Source: Thomasclavelia sp. | GTDB lineage: Bacteria; Bacillota_I; Bacilli_A; Erysipelotrichales; Coprobacillaceae | Direction: 5' to 3' | DNA length: 64,000 nucleotides | Assembly (NCBI GenBank): GCA_028749475.1 | Contig: JAQVWN010000006.1 | Location: forward strand, 1 to 64,000 | Part shown: piece by piece, positions 1 through 31,193 of the stretch | Layout of the letters: each line of letters opens with the position of its first letter | How positions within the stretch are numbered: the first letter of the stretch is position 1 | Notes under the pieces: model-generated | What the model saw: only the letters and a program-made list of their open reading frames with translations | Databases searched by the model: none | What the model was told of the DNA's origin: nothing | Translations under genes and position numbers: made by a program

Positions 1-24
1 TTGGGAACAGCGTAAGTTGGGAGA
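1..24 (+). repeat. Inverted repeat A, left copy (WEQRKLG border)
   Basis: Starts TTGGGAACAGCGTAAGTT and matches the reverse complement of 1939-1962 in 23 of 24 positions. It encodes the WEQRKLG entry to the recognition domain. The repeat may extend left of the window. Confidence 0.85.
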
Positions 25-544
25 TTTAATGAACATAACATCGGTTAAAAGAGTACATCAAAGTGATTGGAGGACGGAAGGAGTTAGGTTTTTGAGGGCT
101 AGAGATATAGTCTCAGAATGGAAAAATGAAAAGCCACAAGACTACTTATATATATCTAATGATATATACAATAAATATAGCGAGTTATCAGGTAAGGTTT
201 CTAAAGGAGATCTCTTGGTTACTGGTGTCGGGACTATAGGAATTCCTTATTTAATAAGGAATTTAACACCAATATATTTTAAAGATGGGAATATTATTTG
301 GCTAAAAAACAATAACAAACTTGATGGTGATTTTCTATATTATTCATTCTGTAACAGTACCATTCAAAAATATATACACACATCGGCCGGATCAGGAACA
401 GTAGGTACGTATACAATTGAAACTGCAAAAACGACACCACTTTATACACCTTCAAATCCAGAACAACAGTTGATAGGATCTTTCTTTAACCAAATTGATA
501 ACCTTGTCACCCTTCATCAGCGAAAGTGTATTTTGCTAATTTAA
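1..544 (+). CDS. hsdS: Type I restriction-modification specificity subunit HsdS, 3' part (runs off the left edge)
   Basis: DNA-recognition subunit of a type I restriction-modification enzyme. The frame is open to the window edge and reads WEQRKLGD from base 2, the usual start of an HsdS target-recognition domain, so the TTG at 17 is not a real start. The domain runs to QIDNLVTLHQRK, the usual start of the conserved helical spacer, but only five residues (CILLI) follow before the stop; family members normally continue with about 20 more helix residues. The last 9 bases overlap the convergent recombinase gene. Bases 1-24 and 507-527 recur inverted at 1939-1962 and 1486-1506, so this end of hsdS can be exchanged. 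hsdM and hsdR are not in the window. Confidence 0.9.
   Translation, partial: WEQRKLGDLMNITSVKRVHQSDWRTEGVRFLRARDIVSEWKNEKPQDYLYISNDIYNKYSELSGKVSKGDLLVTGVGTIGIPYLIRNLTPIYFKDGNIIWLKNNNKLDGDFLYYSFCNSTIQKYIHTSAGSGTVGTYTIETAKTTPLYTPSNPEQQLIGSFFNQIDNLVTLHQRKCILLI
507..527 (+). repeat. Inverted repeat B, left copy (LHQRK border)
   Basis: A 21-bp sequence encoding the TLHQRK border, exactly reverse-complementary to 1486-1506 across the recombinase gene. Weaker similarity continues into the upstream FFNQID codons. Confidence 0.85.
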
Positions 545-1462
545 GTTAGCTAATGATCTCATAACAAGATCAATATCCTTGTTTTCAAGTTCTTGTATAA
601 TATGTAAATATGTTTTTTGAGTGGTTGTCATGCTTGCGTGACCAAGACGTCTCGCTACACTTGCGATTGAAACTCCAGTGAATAGTAGTAATGAAGCATG
701 TGTGTGACGCAATCCATGAATGGAAATAATTGGGATGTTACATTTTTTACAGTGCCTTGCCAAAATATCATTAATAGTTGAGTTATAGACCCTTTGTTTA
801 ACAAATATGGGGTCTTTTTTTGGTAAATCTTTAACTAACTCTGAAAACTGACTCACTGTTTTCCAATCAATTTGGATTTTTCTGATTGATGACTTGTTTT
901 TAGTTTGAGCAAATCCAGTGTTATCTTTATAGTCCCATGTTTTATTGACTATTAGTAATTGTTGTGAGAAATCGAAATCTTCAGGTGTTATAGCTAATGC
1001 TTCAGAAAATCTGAGACCTGTTTTTGCTATTAGAAGAATTAGAAAGTCGTAATTAATTCCTTTATTTAGCGATAAAGATGATAGAAGAGTATGCAATTGA
1101 AATTGATTGAGGTATTTTACCTTTTTCACTCTCGGCTCCTTTCCTTTAATAATAGCTTTTCTAGTTGGATCGTGAGGTATTAGTCCATCATCTACAGCAT
1201 CAATAATTGCTCCTTTTAACTGGTGATGGAAATCCATCGTTGTTTGACGTTCGTGAGATATTGCATACTTATTAAGTAAGTCTTGGTATGTTGTTCTATT
1301 TAAATCACTCATCTTTATATCAGGGATAAGTTTTTGTACCCAACTTAAACTCATTTTATATTTATTCAATGTTACTTTTCTCACGGCACCTTCTTTATAT
1401 ACAGCAATCCATCTCTTGTAATAATCTGCGAATATTGTTTCATTTGATTCGTTAGTTATCAT
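536..1462 (-). CDS. Tyrosine site-specific recombinase (integrase), likely hsdS invertase
   Basis: Phage-integrase-type tyrosine recombinase, 308 residues from the ATG at 1460-1462, which has an AGGAGG ribosome binding site about 9 bases upstream. An N-terminal core-binding region (about residues 10-95) precedes the catalytic domain (about 115-300). The catalytic set is visible: R151 in TGLRFSEA, H249 and R252 in HGLRHTHAS, H275 in RRLGHAS, and Y285 in TQKTYLHI. It lies between the end of hsdS and an inverted hsdS cassette, the classic position of recombinases that shuffle HsdS domains. The same reading frame stays open upstream through the silent cassette to 2044. Prophage origin is less likely, since no other phage genes are present. 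Confidence 0.9.
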   Translation of the reverse strand: MITNESNETIFADYYKRWIAVYKEGAVRKVTLNKYKMSLSWVQKLIPDIKMSDLNRTTYQDLLNKYAISHERQTTMDFHHQLKGAIIDAVDDGLIPHDPTRKAIIKGKEPRVKKVKYLNQFQLHTLLSSLSLNKGINYDFLILLIAKTGLRFSEALAITPEDFDFSQQLLIVNKTWDYKDNTGFAQTKNKSSIRKIQIDWKTVSQFSELVKDLPKKDPIFVKQRVYNSTINDILARHCKKCNIPIISIHGLRHTHASLLLFTGVSIASVARRLGHASMTTTQKTYLHIIQELENKDIDLVMRSLANLN

Positions 1463-1485
1463 TCTGTTAATTCCTCCTATTTTTG

Positions 1486-1506
1486 ACTTTCGCTGATGAA
1501 GGGTGA
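1486..1506 (-). repeat. Inverted repeat B, right copy
   Basis: Exact reverse complement of 507-527, at the 3' border of the silent cassette. Recombination between the B copies would flip only the recombinase gene. Confidence 0.85.
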
Positions 1507-1938
1507 TAAGGTGGTCGATTTGGTTGAAGAATGATCCTATTTGTTGTTGTTCATCATTTCTTGGAATTATTATTTTTGCTGTTTTTATATTATCAGAACT
1601 TAAAGATGAGAATGTTGATCCGCAAGATAATACATCCCAGTACTTTGTTTGATCCATTTTAACCAATAGTTGGTATATAAATTCATTTCCTTTAATTGCA
1701 GCTACGCCTCGACCAATCACAGCATCATAAGCGGTTTTTCCCATGCTACCAGCAGGGGCACGAACACTCATTATCAAATCATTTGCATTGGCCATTTTAG
1801 TAACTTGTGTTGTCCAAATTCTAGGAACTACCCATCCATTATTAAGATCAGCATTTCCTTGAACCAAAACATGTTTCGTAGGTTTGTCTGAATAAGTATT
1901 ACCATTTGGTGATTGTCCCATGGTAATCGAGACTACTT

Positions 1939-1962
1939 CTCCTAACTTACGCTGTTCCCAAA
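1939..1962 (-). repeat. Inverted repeat A, right copy
   Basis: Reverse complement of 1-24 with one mismatch, at the 5' border of the silent cassette. Recombination between the A copies would put this cassette in the expressed hsdS position. Confidence 0.85.
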
Positions 1963-2387
1963 AGATAGTATAAATAATAGATCTATATGATATGCATATT
2001 TTTATAAAACTAATGAACTTAATGTTACTTGCGATAAGGTTCAATAAGAGAAATAAGGGGCTATAATGATATCCTTATTAAGTGTACTGTGTTTGATTTT
2101 AGAAGAGTTGATTATGCTGTATATAACAGGATTGCCTAAGTAACTTAAAGGCATAATTCTTCCTTTACTGGTATACATTATTTCAAATTTAAGAGTCACT
2201 TATTAAGTGATATATAAAATGAAATTTAATTAACAAACGAAATTTCAGCTACTAGTTGTTTCTTATCTAGTACCATATAATGTTTACTTTATTTGTATCT
2301 CTACCTACTTATATGATTTTGAGTGAATAAATAGAATTAATGTATATGTAATGAGTTTTAAAAATAATTCACCATTCATCTTCCTTA

Positions 2388-3182: not shown

Positions 3183-4244
3183 ATGGTTACTGAAAATAAA
3201 CAAATAAAAGATGAGAATCCAGAGAAAGAAGATATTTTTAAGTTTTGCTTATACTTAAATGATTTGAATAGGCTGTATTTCAGATATAAAAACGATTATA
3301 AGAAATCTTATACTATATTTGATAGTATTCAAGATCTTATTATAGATTTCGCACAAATAAGTATAAATAAGGACTATTCACCTGAAATTATGAATGAAGT
3401 ATTTAAAATAAAACAGATGATTATTCCTAATCCAAGTATGAATTATAATGTTGGCGATATTGAATCATCTGACCTAAGGTATTGCGCACTTTCATTGTCA
3501 AGTGTCCAAGATGTGTCTACCAAATATATTACTTTAACAAATTGTTACAATTATGAAAATCAAGAAGTTATTGTTGATATAGATAAATTAAAGAGCAATA
3601 TTACTTATGCAAAAAAAATTTTTTCAGCTTTATTAAAAGGTGGAATGAACTTGGGCTATTTTAGAGGTGCTAACTGTATGGCCATGTTGGTAATGAAATA
3701 TTTGGCAACAAATAAAGAGGACAGACTGCTAGTAGCTATGAGTGGAACATCAGATAATCTAAAAAAAGGGGGAACAAATAAACATATTAAAGCGTTTAAA
3801 GACTTTTTGGAGGATTATTCTGCTTTGCCTAATTTTACTCTTTGTCCTAGGGATAAAGAAATGAAAAGTAATAATGTGAGATATAAGCATCGAGGTTCGA
3901 ATAGTATTAAATTGAAATTTTTTGATGATGAATATTATTTAGATGGAACTGGGAATACGCAATACAATGACAACAAAAAAACACAATGTACAAGATTACA
4001 CTACAGATGTTGTGAGAGAAAAATTGAATCATATTTCATGAATAAAATATTTGGTAAGCCAGAAATGGAATTAGTTGAGAGCATCAAATTGCTAATTACT
4101 TATGCGCCGTGCACTGATTGTGCTCTTACTATAAGTGAGTGGAAAAAAGCACTCTTTGGAAAGTATAATATTGAACTTGAGGTTGAAAATGCCAGAAAAT
4201 ACACTGAAAAATGTCCACATTGTGATAAATGTAGATTGCTATAA
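3183..4244 (+). CDS. Deaminase-like zinc protein with C-x-E / P-C-x-x-C signature (353 aa)
   Basis: Start ATG at 3183 behind a strong AAGGAGGTG site. The C-terminal third carries what looks like the zinc-dependent nucleoside/nucleic-acid deaminase signature: C276-C277-E278-R279-K280 (a C-x-E ligand plus catalytic glutamate), then 30 residues, then P309-C310-T311-D312-C313 in a strand-like ITYAPCTDC context followed by a helix. A further cysteine cluster, C344-x2-C347-x2-C350, sits at the extreme C terminus. The first 240 residues are unrecognised and have no P-loop, so this is not the AvcD-type dCTP deaminase with an N-terminal kinase domain. There is no signal peptide. It resembles toxin- and defence-associated deaminases, but the substrate is unknown and the call rests on motif spacing alone. 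Confidence 0.6.
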   Translation: MVTENKQIKDENPEKEDIFKFCLYLNDLNRLYFRYKNDYKKSYTIFDSIQDLIIDFAQISINKDYSPEIMNEVFKIKQMIIPNPSMNYNVGDIESSDLRYCALSLSSVQDVSTKYITLTNCYNYENQEVIVDIDKLKSNITYAKKIFSALLKGGMNLGYFRGANCMAMLVMKYLATNKEDRLLVAMSGTSDNLKKGGTNKHIKAFKDFLEDYSALPNFTLCPRDKEMKSNNVRYKHRGSNSIKLKFFDDEYYLDGTGNTQYNDNKKTQCTRLHYRCCERKIESYFMNKIFGKPEMELVESIKLLITYAPCTDCALTISEWKKALFGKYNIELEVENARKYTEKCPHCDKCRLL

Positions 4245-6734: not shown

Positions 6735-8354
<1,620 letters not shown>

Positions 8355-8363
8355 TCTAAATTT

Positions 8364-8390
8364 AGAAGACTGAAACAGTCTTCTTTTTTA
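8364..8390 (+). terminator. pyrG terminator
   Basis: Stem AGAAGACTG / CAGTCTTCT with an AAA loop, followed by a T run. Confidence 0.85.
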
Positions 8391-8427
8391 TATATGTTTG
8401 TGATATTATATGACAGGTGGTGAAAAC

Positions 8428-8907
8428 ATGGTAAAGATTGGACAATCAATAGACATTCATCAATTAGTAGAAGACCGAGATCTTATTATTGGCGGTGTAA
8501 AAATCGAAAGTGATAAAGGACTTTTAGGTCATAGTGACGCTGATGTTTTACTGCATGCAGTAATTGAAAGTATCATTGGAGCATTAGGACTAGGTGATAT
8601 TGGTCAACACTTTTCAGATAAAGATGAAAAGTACAAAGGAATATCATCAATGATTCTTTTAGATGAATGTTATAAAATGATGGATAGTCATGGTTATAAG
8701 ATTAGTAATCTAGATAGTACCATCTTATGCCAATCAACGATGATGGCACCATATATCAACCAGATGAAAGAAAACATCGCTTCTGGTTTACACTGTAAAC
8801 CTGAACAAATAAACGTTAAAGCTACTAGAGGAGAAAAACTAGGATTCGTTGGTCGCGACGAAGGAATAGAAGCTCACGCAGTAGTACTAATAGAAAAGAA
8901 AGGATAG
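8428..8907 (+). CDS. ispF: 2-C-methyl-D-erythritol 2,4-cyclodiphosphate synthase
   Basis: Cyclises CDP-methylerythritol 2-phosphate in the non-mevalonate isoprenoid (MEP) pathway. 159 residues from the ATG at 8428, matching the family; this start has AGGTGG 9 bases upstream, unlike the in-frame ATG at 8410. The metal-binding D-x-H (SIDIHQL) is near the N terminus, LGHSDADVLLHA carries the conserved His and Asp, and the C-terminal KATRGEKLGFVGRDEG binds the CDP moiety. gltX begins 3 bases after the stop, so the two are co-transcribed. Confidence 0.95.
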   Translation: MVKIGQSIDIHQLVEDRDLIIGGVKIESDKGLLGHSDADVLLHAVIESIIGALGLGDIGQHFSDKDEKYKGISSMILLDECYKMMDSHGYKISNLDSTILCQSTMMAPYINQMKENIASGLHCKPEQINVKATRGEKLGFVGRDEGIEAHAVVLIEKKG

Positions 8908-8910
8908 AAC

Positions 8911-10356
8911 ATGGATAAAGTAAGAGTAAGATATGCCCCATCTCCAACTGGGCATTTACATATTGGAGGAGCTAGAACAGCTTTATTTAATTATTTATTT
9001 GCTAAACATCATAATGGAGATTTTATCTTTAGATTAGAAGATACTGATATTGAAAGAAATATTGAAGGGGGAGAAAAATCACAATTAGATAACCTAGCAT
9101 GGCTAGGAATCATCCCTGATGAATCACCTTTAAACCCTAATCCTAAATATGCTCCATATCGTCAAATGGAAAGATTAGATATTTATAAAAAATGTACTGA
9201 AGAACTTCTAGAAAGAGGACTTGCTTATAAATGTTTTTGTACTCCAGAAGAATTAGATGCAGAACATGAAAGACAAGTTGCTGCTGGAATGGCACCAATG
9301 TATTCAGGTAAATGTCGTAATTTAACTCCTGAACAAGTAAAAGAAAAAGAAGATGCTGGTATTCCTTATACTATCAGAGTAAAAGTACCAGAAGGAAAAA
9401 CATATCGCTTTAAAGATATGATTAGAGGAGAAGTATCATTTGAATCTAAAGATATTGGTGATTGGGTTTTAGTAAAAGCTAATGGAATTCCTACATATAA
9501 CTATGCGGTAGTTATGGATGATCATTATATGGAAATCACTCATGTATTTAGAGGAGAAGAACATTTATCAAATACTCCTAAACAATTAATGATTTATGAT
9601 ATGTTTGGTTGGACACCACCAACATATGGTCATATGACATTAATTGTTAATGAAGAACATAAAAAGTTATCTAAAAGAGACGAATCAATTATGCAATTTG
9701 TCTCTCAATATAAAGAAGAAGGATATCTTCCAGATGCAATGTTTAACTTCATGGCTCTTCTAGGTTGGTCTCCAAAAGGAAACCAAGAAATCTTTACTAA
9801 AGAAGAACTAATTAAACAATTCGATGAACATCGTTTATCTAAATCACCAACAATGTTTGATAAAAGAAAACTAACTTGGGTAAATAATAGATATATTAAA
9901 GCTAGACCTTTAGAAGAAGTAGTAGCTTTAACTAAACCATTCTTAGAAGAAGCTTATGATTTATCTAATAAGAGTGAAGAATGGATTACTTTATTAATTA
10001 AAACTTATCAAGATCAATTATCTTATGGTAAAGAAATAGTAAGTCTAGTAGGTTTATTCTTTGAAGATGATATTCATTTAGATGATGAATGTAAAGAATT
10101 CATGCAAGATCCAACTGTAGAAAATACTTTAAAAGTATTTAAAGAAAAGATTGAAGCAGTAGATGATCTTACTTACGAAGCATCAAATAACTGTATTAAA
10201 GAAACCCAAGTAGAAGCAGGAGTAAAAGGTAAACTTTTATACATGCCTCTTAGAATAGCTATTACTGGTCATATGCATGGTCCAGATTTAAATAGTTCAA
10301 TTGTTTTACTTGGTAAAGATGTTGTTGTAAATAGATTAAATCAAAAGAATTATTAA
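8911..10356 (+). CDS. gltX: Glutamyl-tRNA synthetase
   Basis: Class I aminoacyl-tRNA synthetase charging tRNA-Glu (and possibly tRNA-Gln, with later amidation). 481 residues, normal length. The HIGH-type motif is [17 protein letters not shown] near the N terminus and the KMSKS-type loop is [10 protein letters not shown] at about residue 250. The zinc-region equivalent [11 protein letters not shown] is present. The C-terminal helical anticodon-binding part ends at the stop. It sits directly behind ispF with almost no gap. Confidence 0.97.
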
Positions 10357-30989: not shown

Positions 30990-31009
30990 GACAAAGAAGT
31001 AAAGAAAAT

Positions 31010-31150
31010 TAAATACACTTGTGAATTATGGAATCAGGTATAAGCCTGAGCGGTCCCGCCGCCGTAATGAGGAGTTTAGCAAATGTCACTGGGAAACTGG
31101 GAAGACGCGAAAACGATGAATCAAAGCCGGAATACTTGTTCACATTTTAA
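31010..31150 (+). ncRNA. Cobalamin (B12) riboswitch
   Basis: Conserved blocks in order: GGAATCAGGTATAAGCCTGA, then GCGGTCCCGCCGCCGTAA, then GTCACTGGGAAACTGGGAAG, GCGAAAACGATGAATC, and the B12-box-like AAAGCCGGAATACTTG. Flanking CTTGTGAA and TTGTTCAC can pair as P1. A terminator stands 45 bases downstream, so bound B12 should switch off the following operon. Confidence 0.95.
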
Positions 31151-31193
31151 GATGAATACACTTTACGGAGTATAAAGTAGTTCTTTAAAAAAG

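Follow-up and report, generated by a model that had tools for sequence, protein, structure and literature searches.

A tyrosine recombinase between two opposed HsdS recognition cassettes in a Thomasclavelia genome: a probable module of inverting type I restriction-modification loci

Introduction

What is the role of a complete tyrosine recombinase that lies between two different HsdS TRDs at the very edge of a contig, and is the strain that carries it still able to switch its methylation? Inverting hsdS loci change the methylation pattern of the cell and can alter the expression of many genes. The DNA analysed here, referred to as the window, covers positions 1 to 64,000 of contig C27 from a Thomasclavelia sp. 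assembly (1.84 Mb in 43 contigs), and its base 1 is the contig edge.

According to the parts of the reports cited here, inverting type I loci, some of them with a recombinase, make up 3.9% of type I systems in a REBASE survey (PMC7394358), and a survey of invertons in gut bacteria lists HsdS genes that overlap invertons (PMC11892184). The best-studied recombinase, as these accounts describe it, is PsrA, which is required for recombination at a short IR1 and less so at longer repeats; pneumococci that lack psrA still show some hsdS inversions (PMC7096588, PMC4948785), and recombination independent of all known site-specific recombinases is reported in a further account (PMC6620402).

Results

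Two different single HsdS TRDs in opposite orientation flank a complete tyrosine recombinase in the first 1961 bases of the window (Table 1). Both TRD ends are bordered by inverted repeats, as the initial annotation had proposed: the copies of IR1 are complementary at 23 of 24 bases and those of IR2 at 21 of 21, the latter within a pair of 74-nt arms that are 82% complementary. The left copy of IR1 stands where that annotation had put it, and the right copy, which it had given as 1939-1962, lies one base further left. The 21 nt of IR2 are the longest exact inverted repeat in 1-1963, a length that none of 2000 first-order Markov versions of this segment attained (maximum 18). Pfam Methylase_S matches the plus strand at 2-541 (E 2.9e-11) and a minus-strand segment within 539-2044 (E 3.2e-15). 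The two TRD proteins are the same at WEQRKLG and at IGSFFNQID.L.TLHQRK and differ between these motifs, which agrees with the differing recognition cores that had been claimed, and the recombinase between them is indeed complete; neither it nor either TRD contains a stop. TRD B resembles the second TRD of the solved HsdS subunits 5ybb and 3okg, the recombinase has relatives among solved structures, and none was found for TRD A.

Table 1. Features of the recombinase-TRD segment (positions in the window)
Feature	Position	Strand	Remarks
IR1 left copy	1..24	+	border TTGGGAACAGCGTAAG..., codes (D/A)WEQRKLG at TRD A start; exactly at contig edge
TRD A	2..544	+	single HsdS TRD; ends LHQRKCILLI-stop; Methylase_S E 2.9e-11, PADLOC Specificity_I E 1.9e-32
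IR2 left copy	507..527	+	border ...ACCCTTCATCAGCGAAAGT, codes TLHQRK at TRD A end; imperfect arm 454-527
Tyrosine recombinase	536..1462	-	308 aa, own start codon; Pfam Phage_integrase E 2.7e-20
RBS-like AGGAGG	1473..1478	-	ten bases before recombinase ATG, read directly
IR2 right copy	1486..1506	-	TRD B end; imperfect arm 1486-1559
TRD B	1484..1960	-	single TRD, WEQRKLG without HsdS N-terminus ahead; in frame with recombinase
IR1 right copy	1938..1961	-	TRD B start

TRD B and the recombinase share one open frame of 502 aa. A fusion protein of HsdS and recombinase was considered and rejected as a chance of the reading frame, since the recombinase has its own start codon and AGGAGG and, of 34 recombinases next to a same-strand TRD (the window and duplicate loci counted), only 3 share a frame with it.

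A scan of GTDB contigs yielded 404 relatives of the recombinase, from which the best 80 loci (68-75% identity) were kept, and HsdS, HsdM and HsdR domains were counted in them with our own HMMs. Among these best 80 of 404 loci, HsdS domains were present in 65, HsdM in 33, HsdR in 57 and any of the three in 72; the eight loci with no such match are only 3.0 to 9.0 kb long, and where at least 4 kb were available on both sides HsdS domains were found in 37 of 38. The recombinase is conserved together with its cassette, a point on which the initial annotation had staked its reading. A TRD convergent on the recombinase and within 150 bp downstream of it was found for 25 of 86 recombinases and a same-strand upstream TRD for 34 of 86 (the window and duplicate loci included). 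High similarity over the full length and the flanking TRD cassettes place the recombinase of the window in this hsdS-associated family of tyrosine recombinases. The titles of the records name Roseburia and Weissella, which we take to be Bacillota, Rodentibacter, Histophilus and Moraxella, presumably Pseudomonadota, and Collinsella and Slackia, which we assign to Actinomycetota; further relatives, from records of a plasmid collection, are the hsdS-associated recombinases of Enterococcus, Lactobacillus delbrueckii and Mycoplasmopsis.

The border sites are conserved as DNA. In the HsdS ORFs of the relative loci, TGGGAACAG is exact in 159 of 162 WE[QLKM]R motifs and TGGGAACAGCGTAAG in 129 of 162, while ACCCTTCATCAGCG is exact in 105 of 157 LHQR-type motifs; in GC-rich loci TGGGAACAGCGTAAG is exact in 27 of 32, and its expectation by a rough product of codon frequencies is 0.014. 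The window itself holds two copies of TGGGAACAGCGTAAG and two of ACCCTTCATCAGCGAAAG. With one motif per locus, we calculated the fraction of identical codons among pairs that share the same residue (the duplicate loci L126, L128 and L129, of L019, L044 and L063, as well as L130 and L131, were left out of the motif, tail and neighbour counts). At the W border this fraction is 0.94 for the codon before W, 1.0 for E, 0.93 for Q, 0.66 for R and 0.92 for K, and outside it is 0.35-0.38 for the next two codons and 0.53 one codon upstream; at the TLHQRK border it is 0.60-0.97 across about nine codons ending with (T)LHQRK, and then 0.30. As a yardstick, the corresponding fraction over shared degenerate residues in the 80 recombinase genes from these loci is 0.41, against 0.91-1.0 at the best border positions (E, Q and K of WEQRK; L and H of TLHQR); about one codon beyond the W border on its outer side, and also past the H border, codon identity has dropped. 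Scattered positions away from the borders also reach 0.76-0.77, so that single codons are no proof and it is the run of conserved codons that counts. The recombinase genes were preferred as yardstick to a control set of 38 HsdS ORFs in further genomes of this order, which is too small for the purpose: WE[QLKM]R occurs in it only 8 times, across 5 loci, and TLHQR-type motifs 4 times, mostly with the same codons, its flanks are only 1.5 kb, and one control locus carries the recombinase. Conservation at the borders extends to synonymous positions and goes far beyond what the encoded protein demands.

The same cores stand at the same TRD borders in the invertible hsd locus of Listeria monocytogenes, whose inverted repeats, as given in the part of the paper cited here, are agcttgggaacagcgt on the IR1 side and ctatcgctcttcatcagcgtaagttagat on the IR2 side (PMC4783014). 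A text search of a library of open-access papers for the border sequences returned no match beyond that paper, and the conservation of the sites across phyla may be described elsewhere. Conservation at the codon level reveals putative recombination sites of about 16 and 27 nt, which may prove useful for detecting and testing modules of this type directly in draft genomes, since assemblies tend to break there.

For the genome of the window itself the signs of inversion are indirect. Contig ends at most 200 bp from the recombinase were found in 18 of 79 relative contigs against 2.98 expected (L084, in which the recombinase is split, is left out), many of them reading ...ATCACCCTTCATCAGCG, and in the window the 16-nt site starts exactly where the contig does. 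Both the excess of contig ends and the edge of the window can arise from repeats common to several cassettes or from mixed orientations. Orientation could not be compared within the genus, as the 60 genomes considered include none of the same genus.

Exchange between strains is seen in more distant relatives. In the megaplasmids of Enterococcus raffinosus Er676 and F162_2, whose recombinase is 61% identical to that of the window, the first TRDs of the two flanking hsdS genes are swapped and the DNA is otherwise collinear. Two plasmids of Ligilactobacillus salivarius (L139 and L140) differ over 18.9 kb by one inversion of 2115 bp (6781-8895), which is bounded by 29-bp repeats, adjoins a recombinase of 57% identity and swaps parts between two genes of opposite orientation, one of which is annotated as a GbpC/Spa surface protein. 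This pair was rejected as an hsdS strain pair on the grounds that the client is the surface gene, and its 29-bp repeats are unlike the hsdS border sites; it follows that the recombinase family is not limited to hsdS and that homology alone does not fix the choice of site. Taken together, the linkage in relatives, the match of the borders to published hsdS repeats and the inversion or TRD exchange between paired strains support the view that this segment is a recombinase-plus-TRD-cassette module of inverting type I restriction-modification loci.

Discussion

How would such a module work? We consider it quite probable that the segment is the TRD-shuffling part of an inverting type I restriction-modification locus and that A and B are silent half-cassettes exchanged with an hsdS gene beyond the contig edge. 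The recombinase would recognise two short sites at the TRD borders, both of them coding DNA at the same time: a start site of about 16 nt, TTGGGAACAGCGTAAG, which codes WEQRK, and an end site of about 27 nt ending with ACCCTTCATCAGCGTAAG, which codes TLHQRK, and it would invert the DNA between oppositely oriented copies of a site. An inversion at the start site combined with one at the end site would move a TRD to a new position and keep the reading frame. TRDs A and B would then be two silent half-cassettes convergent on the recombinase, and their exchange partner a complete hsdS in the unassembled DNA to the left of base 1. When IR1 is inverted in silico, TRD B comes into frame with the recombinase over 474 codons; an IR2 inversion added to it should give a clean exchange of TRDs. 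That this recombinase acts on these very sites seems likely.

The partner genes are where the module appears impaired. No complete two-TRD hsdS was found in the assembly, which is rated 97.9% complete, and the only HsdS domains in it are the two TRDs of the window. A search of the assembly for hsdR returned neither a PF04313 match nor a match to the HsdR of a relative, a weak miss given that the protein query is divergent and that a gap could hide the gene. In view of this, the window is filed as a recombinase-TRD module and not as a complete, working inverting type I locus. The only HsdM-like gene (PF02384 and HsdM_N) stands outside the window at the end of contig C22 (L131, 16444-18337), and two further, weak PF02384 matches lie on other contigs; C22 and C27 may be parts of one locus. 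On C22 an ORF for an HTH regulator overlaps the start of hsdM. The HsdM-like ORF has 599 aa, against 866 and 887 aa in the closest relatives L058 and L036, and the similarity stops near its end. Its last residues and the remaining 94 bp of C22 are the end of a sequence that is present at six places of the same assembly, mostly at contig ends, and that always starts with TGTACATTTGTAAATGATGTG; one copy runs on into a reading frame that weakly matches an integrase core (rve_3, E 0.001, below the cut-off). An insertion sequence, presumably of an IS481-like family, thus interrupts hsdM. A search of the assembly for the missing C-terminal part with the corresponding L058 segment found none, again a weak miss with a divergent query. 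The shortened HsdM keeps its N6_Mtase domain and the HsdM ORFs of other relatives are 531-557 aa long, for which reason loss of its function is, from sequence, likely only.

It is worth asking whether the whole module is a degenerate relic, deprived of its methyltransferase partner and without further effect on methylation, whose recombinase may still act. This is quite conceivable, although we stop short of calling it probable. The HsdM-like gene that ends within a multi-copy insertion sequence and the absence of hsdR and of a two-TRD hsdS from the assembly point in that direction; against it, the recombinase and both TRDs are intact, the missing genes may sit in unassembled repeats, the shortened HsdM retains the N6_Mtase domain, other relatives have still shorter ORFs, and C22 need not adjoin C27. 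The initial annotation had gone further in the other direction and concluded that the strain is able to alter both its methylome and its restriction specificity, which finds no support in an assembly with a truncated gene as its only HsdM-like one and no match for hsdR or a two-TRD hsdS. Methylation switching in this strain is doubtful, given the insertion sequence in that gene and the failure to find hsdR.

Is TRD A expressed or silent? The same annotation took 1-544 for the end of an expressed hsdS, that is, 2-544 would be the 3' half of a gene with its 5' half immediately beyond the contig edge, and one inversion would switch its second TRD. The frame is indeed open from the contig edge, in more distant relatives (E. 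raffinosus and L. delbrueckii) the recombinase is flanked by two-TRD hsdS genes, and of 24 equivalent neighbours in close relatives 3 have an HsdS N-terminus and 5 have hsdM just upstream. All 24 of these TRDs convergent on the 3' end of the recombinase are, however, single-TRD ORFs, and the HsdS N-terminus is missing in 20 of them and cut off in 1. The number of residues after LHQRK tells the same way: a median of 17 in two-TRD ORFs (n=36, with wide outliers) and of 3 in convergent cassettes (n=18), against 5 in the segment 1-544. Moreover, the single inversion at IR1 that an expressed end would call for leaves TRD B in the 474-aa frame with the recombinase, open from base 2. The short tail and the predominance of equivalents without an HsdS N-terminus make a silent half-cassette the most likely reading of TRD A; the claim of an expressed end is not borne out, and we regard the 3' half of an hsdS as possible, yet unlikely. 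In a Veillonella relative (L036) the sole HsdS domain found in a locus of 16.9 kb is a one-TRD ORF with an HsdS N-terminus (9013-9609, minus strand), placed immediately after hsdM and in convergent orientation to the recombinase, an arrangement which suggests that a half-length HsdS may itself be expressed there.

Tyrosine recombinases are common, and 1796 phage records hold relatives of this one, but nearly all of these are below 60% identity, and with HsdS domains in 37 of the 38 well-covered loci and an HsdS, HsdM or HsdR match in 72 of the best 80 it is very improbable that an ordinary integrase of a mobile element landed beside hsdS by chance.

Retaining the reading of a TRD-shuffling module with two silent half-cassettes, we find that the segment belongs to an already known kind, the inverting type I loci, its activity in this strain being unproven. 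One of the closest known systems is the hsd locus of L. monocytogenes ST8/CC8 (LMR479A_0528-0532), where, in the part of the report cited, opposed hsdS TRDs surround an integrase and repeats with the cores TGGGAACAGCGT and CTTCATCAGCGTAAG stand at the same TRD borders; that locus has two hsdS genes of two TRDs each together with hsdR and hsdM, and occurs in four configurations among strains (PMC4783014). In contrast, the window has two single TRDs, its hsdM is elsewhere and interrupted, hsdR was not found in the assembly, and one configuration was seen. The pneumococcal locus (cod, Spn556II or SpnD39III, with PsrA) is similar by its published description in having a tyrosine recombinase next to hsdSB, an hsdS with one TRD, a short IR1 of 15 bp that needs the recombinase, and silent hsdS copies as donors; it differs, by the same accounts, in that hsdS is present in three copies and that long repeats of 298 and 85 bp occur in addition, and there inversion was proven genetically and in vitro (PMC4948785, PMC7096588). 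The hsd loci of the E. raffinosus megaplasmids (NZ_CP104765.1, NZ_CP072889.1) share the recombinase and the exchange of TRDs between strains described above and differ in carrying two-TRD hsdS genes on both sides of it. In Mycoplasmopsis cynos (NZ_LR214986.1) the recombinase, 62% identical, is annotated as overlapping the end of an hsdS-like gene; unlike in the window, hsdR and hsdM are adjacent and annotated.

It is tempting to hypothesize, tentatively and with considerable doubt, that one recombinase family and one site grammar form a portable cassette system, somewhat akin to integron cassettes, in which TRD half-cassettes can change position and perhaps even pass from one species to another. 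The shared pair of short sites that bounds them, conserved synonymously in Bacillota, Pseudomonadota and Actinomycetota, would be the grammar of such a system, and some genomes would keep the module after the methyltransferase is lost.

Two further observations concern other parts of the window. The plus strand at 3183-4241 encodes a protein of 353 aa with weak, below-cut-off matches to AID/APOBEC-like deaminases (SNAD4, E 0.0019; NAD2, E 0.0071), the best deaminase-like stretch being residues 270-343, and the protein contains CCE...PCTDC. A cobalamin riboswitch is found at 31006-31157 on the plus strand (60.1 bits).
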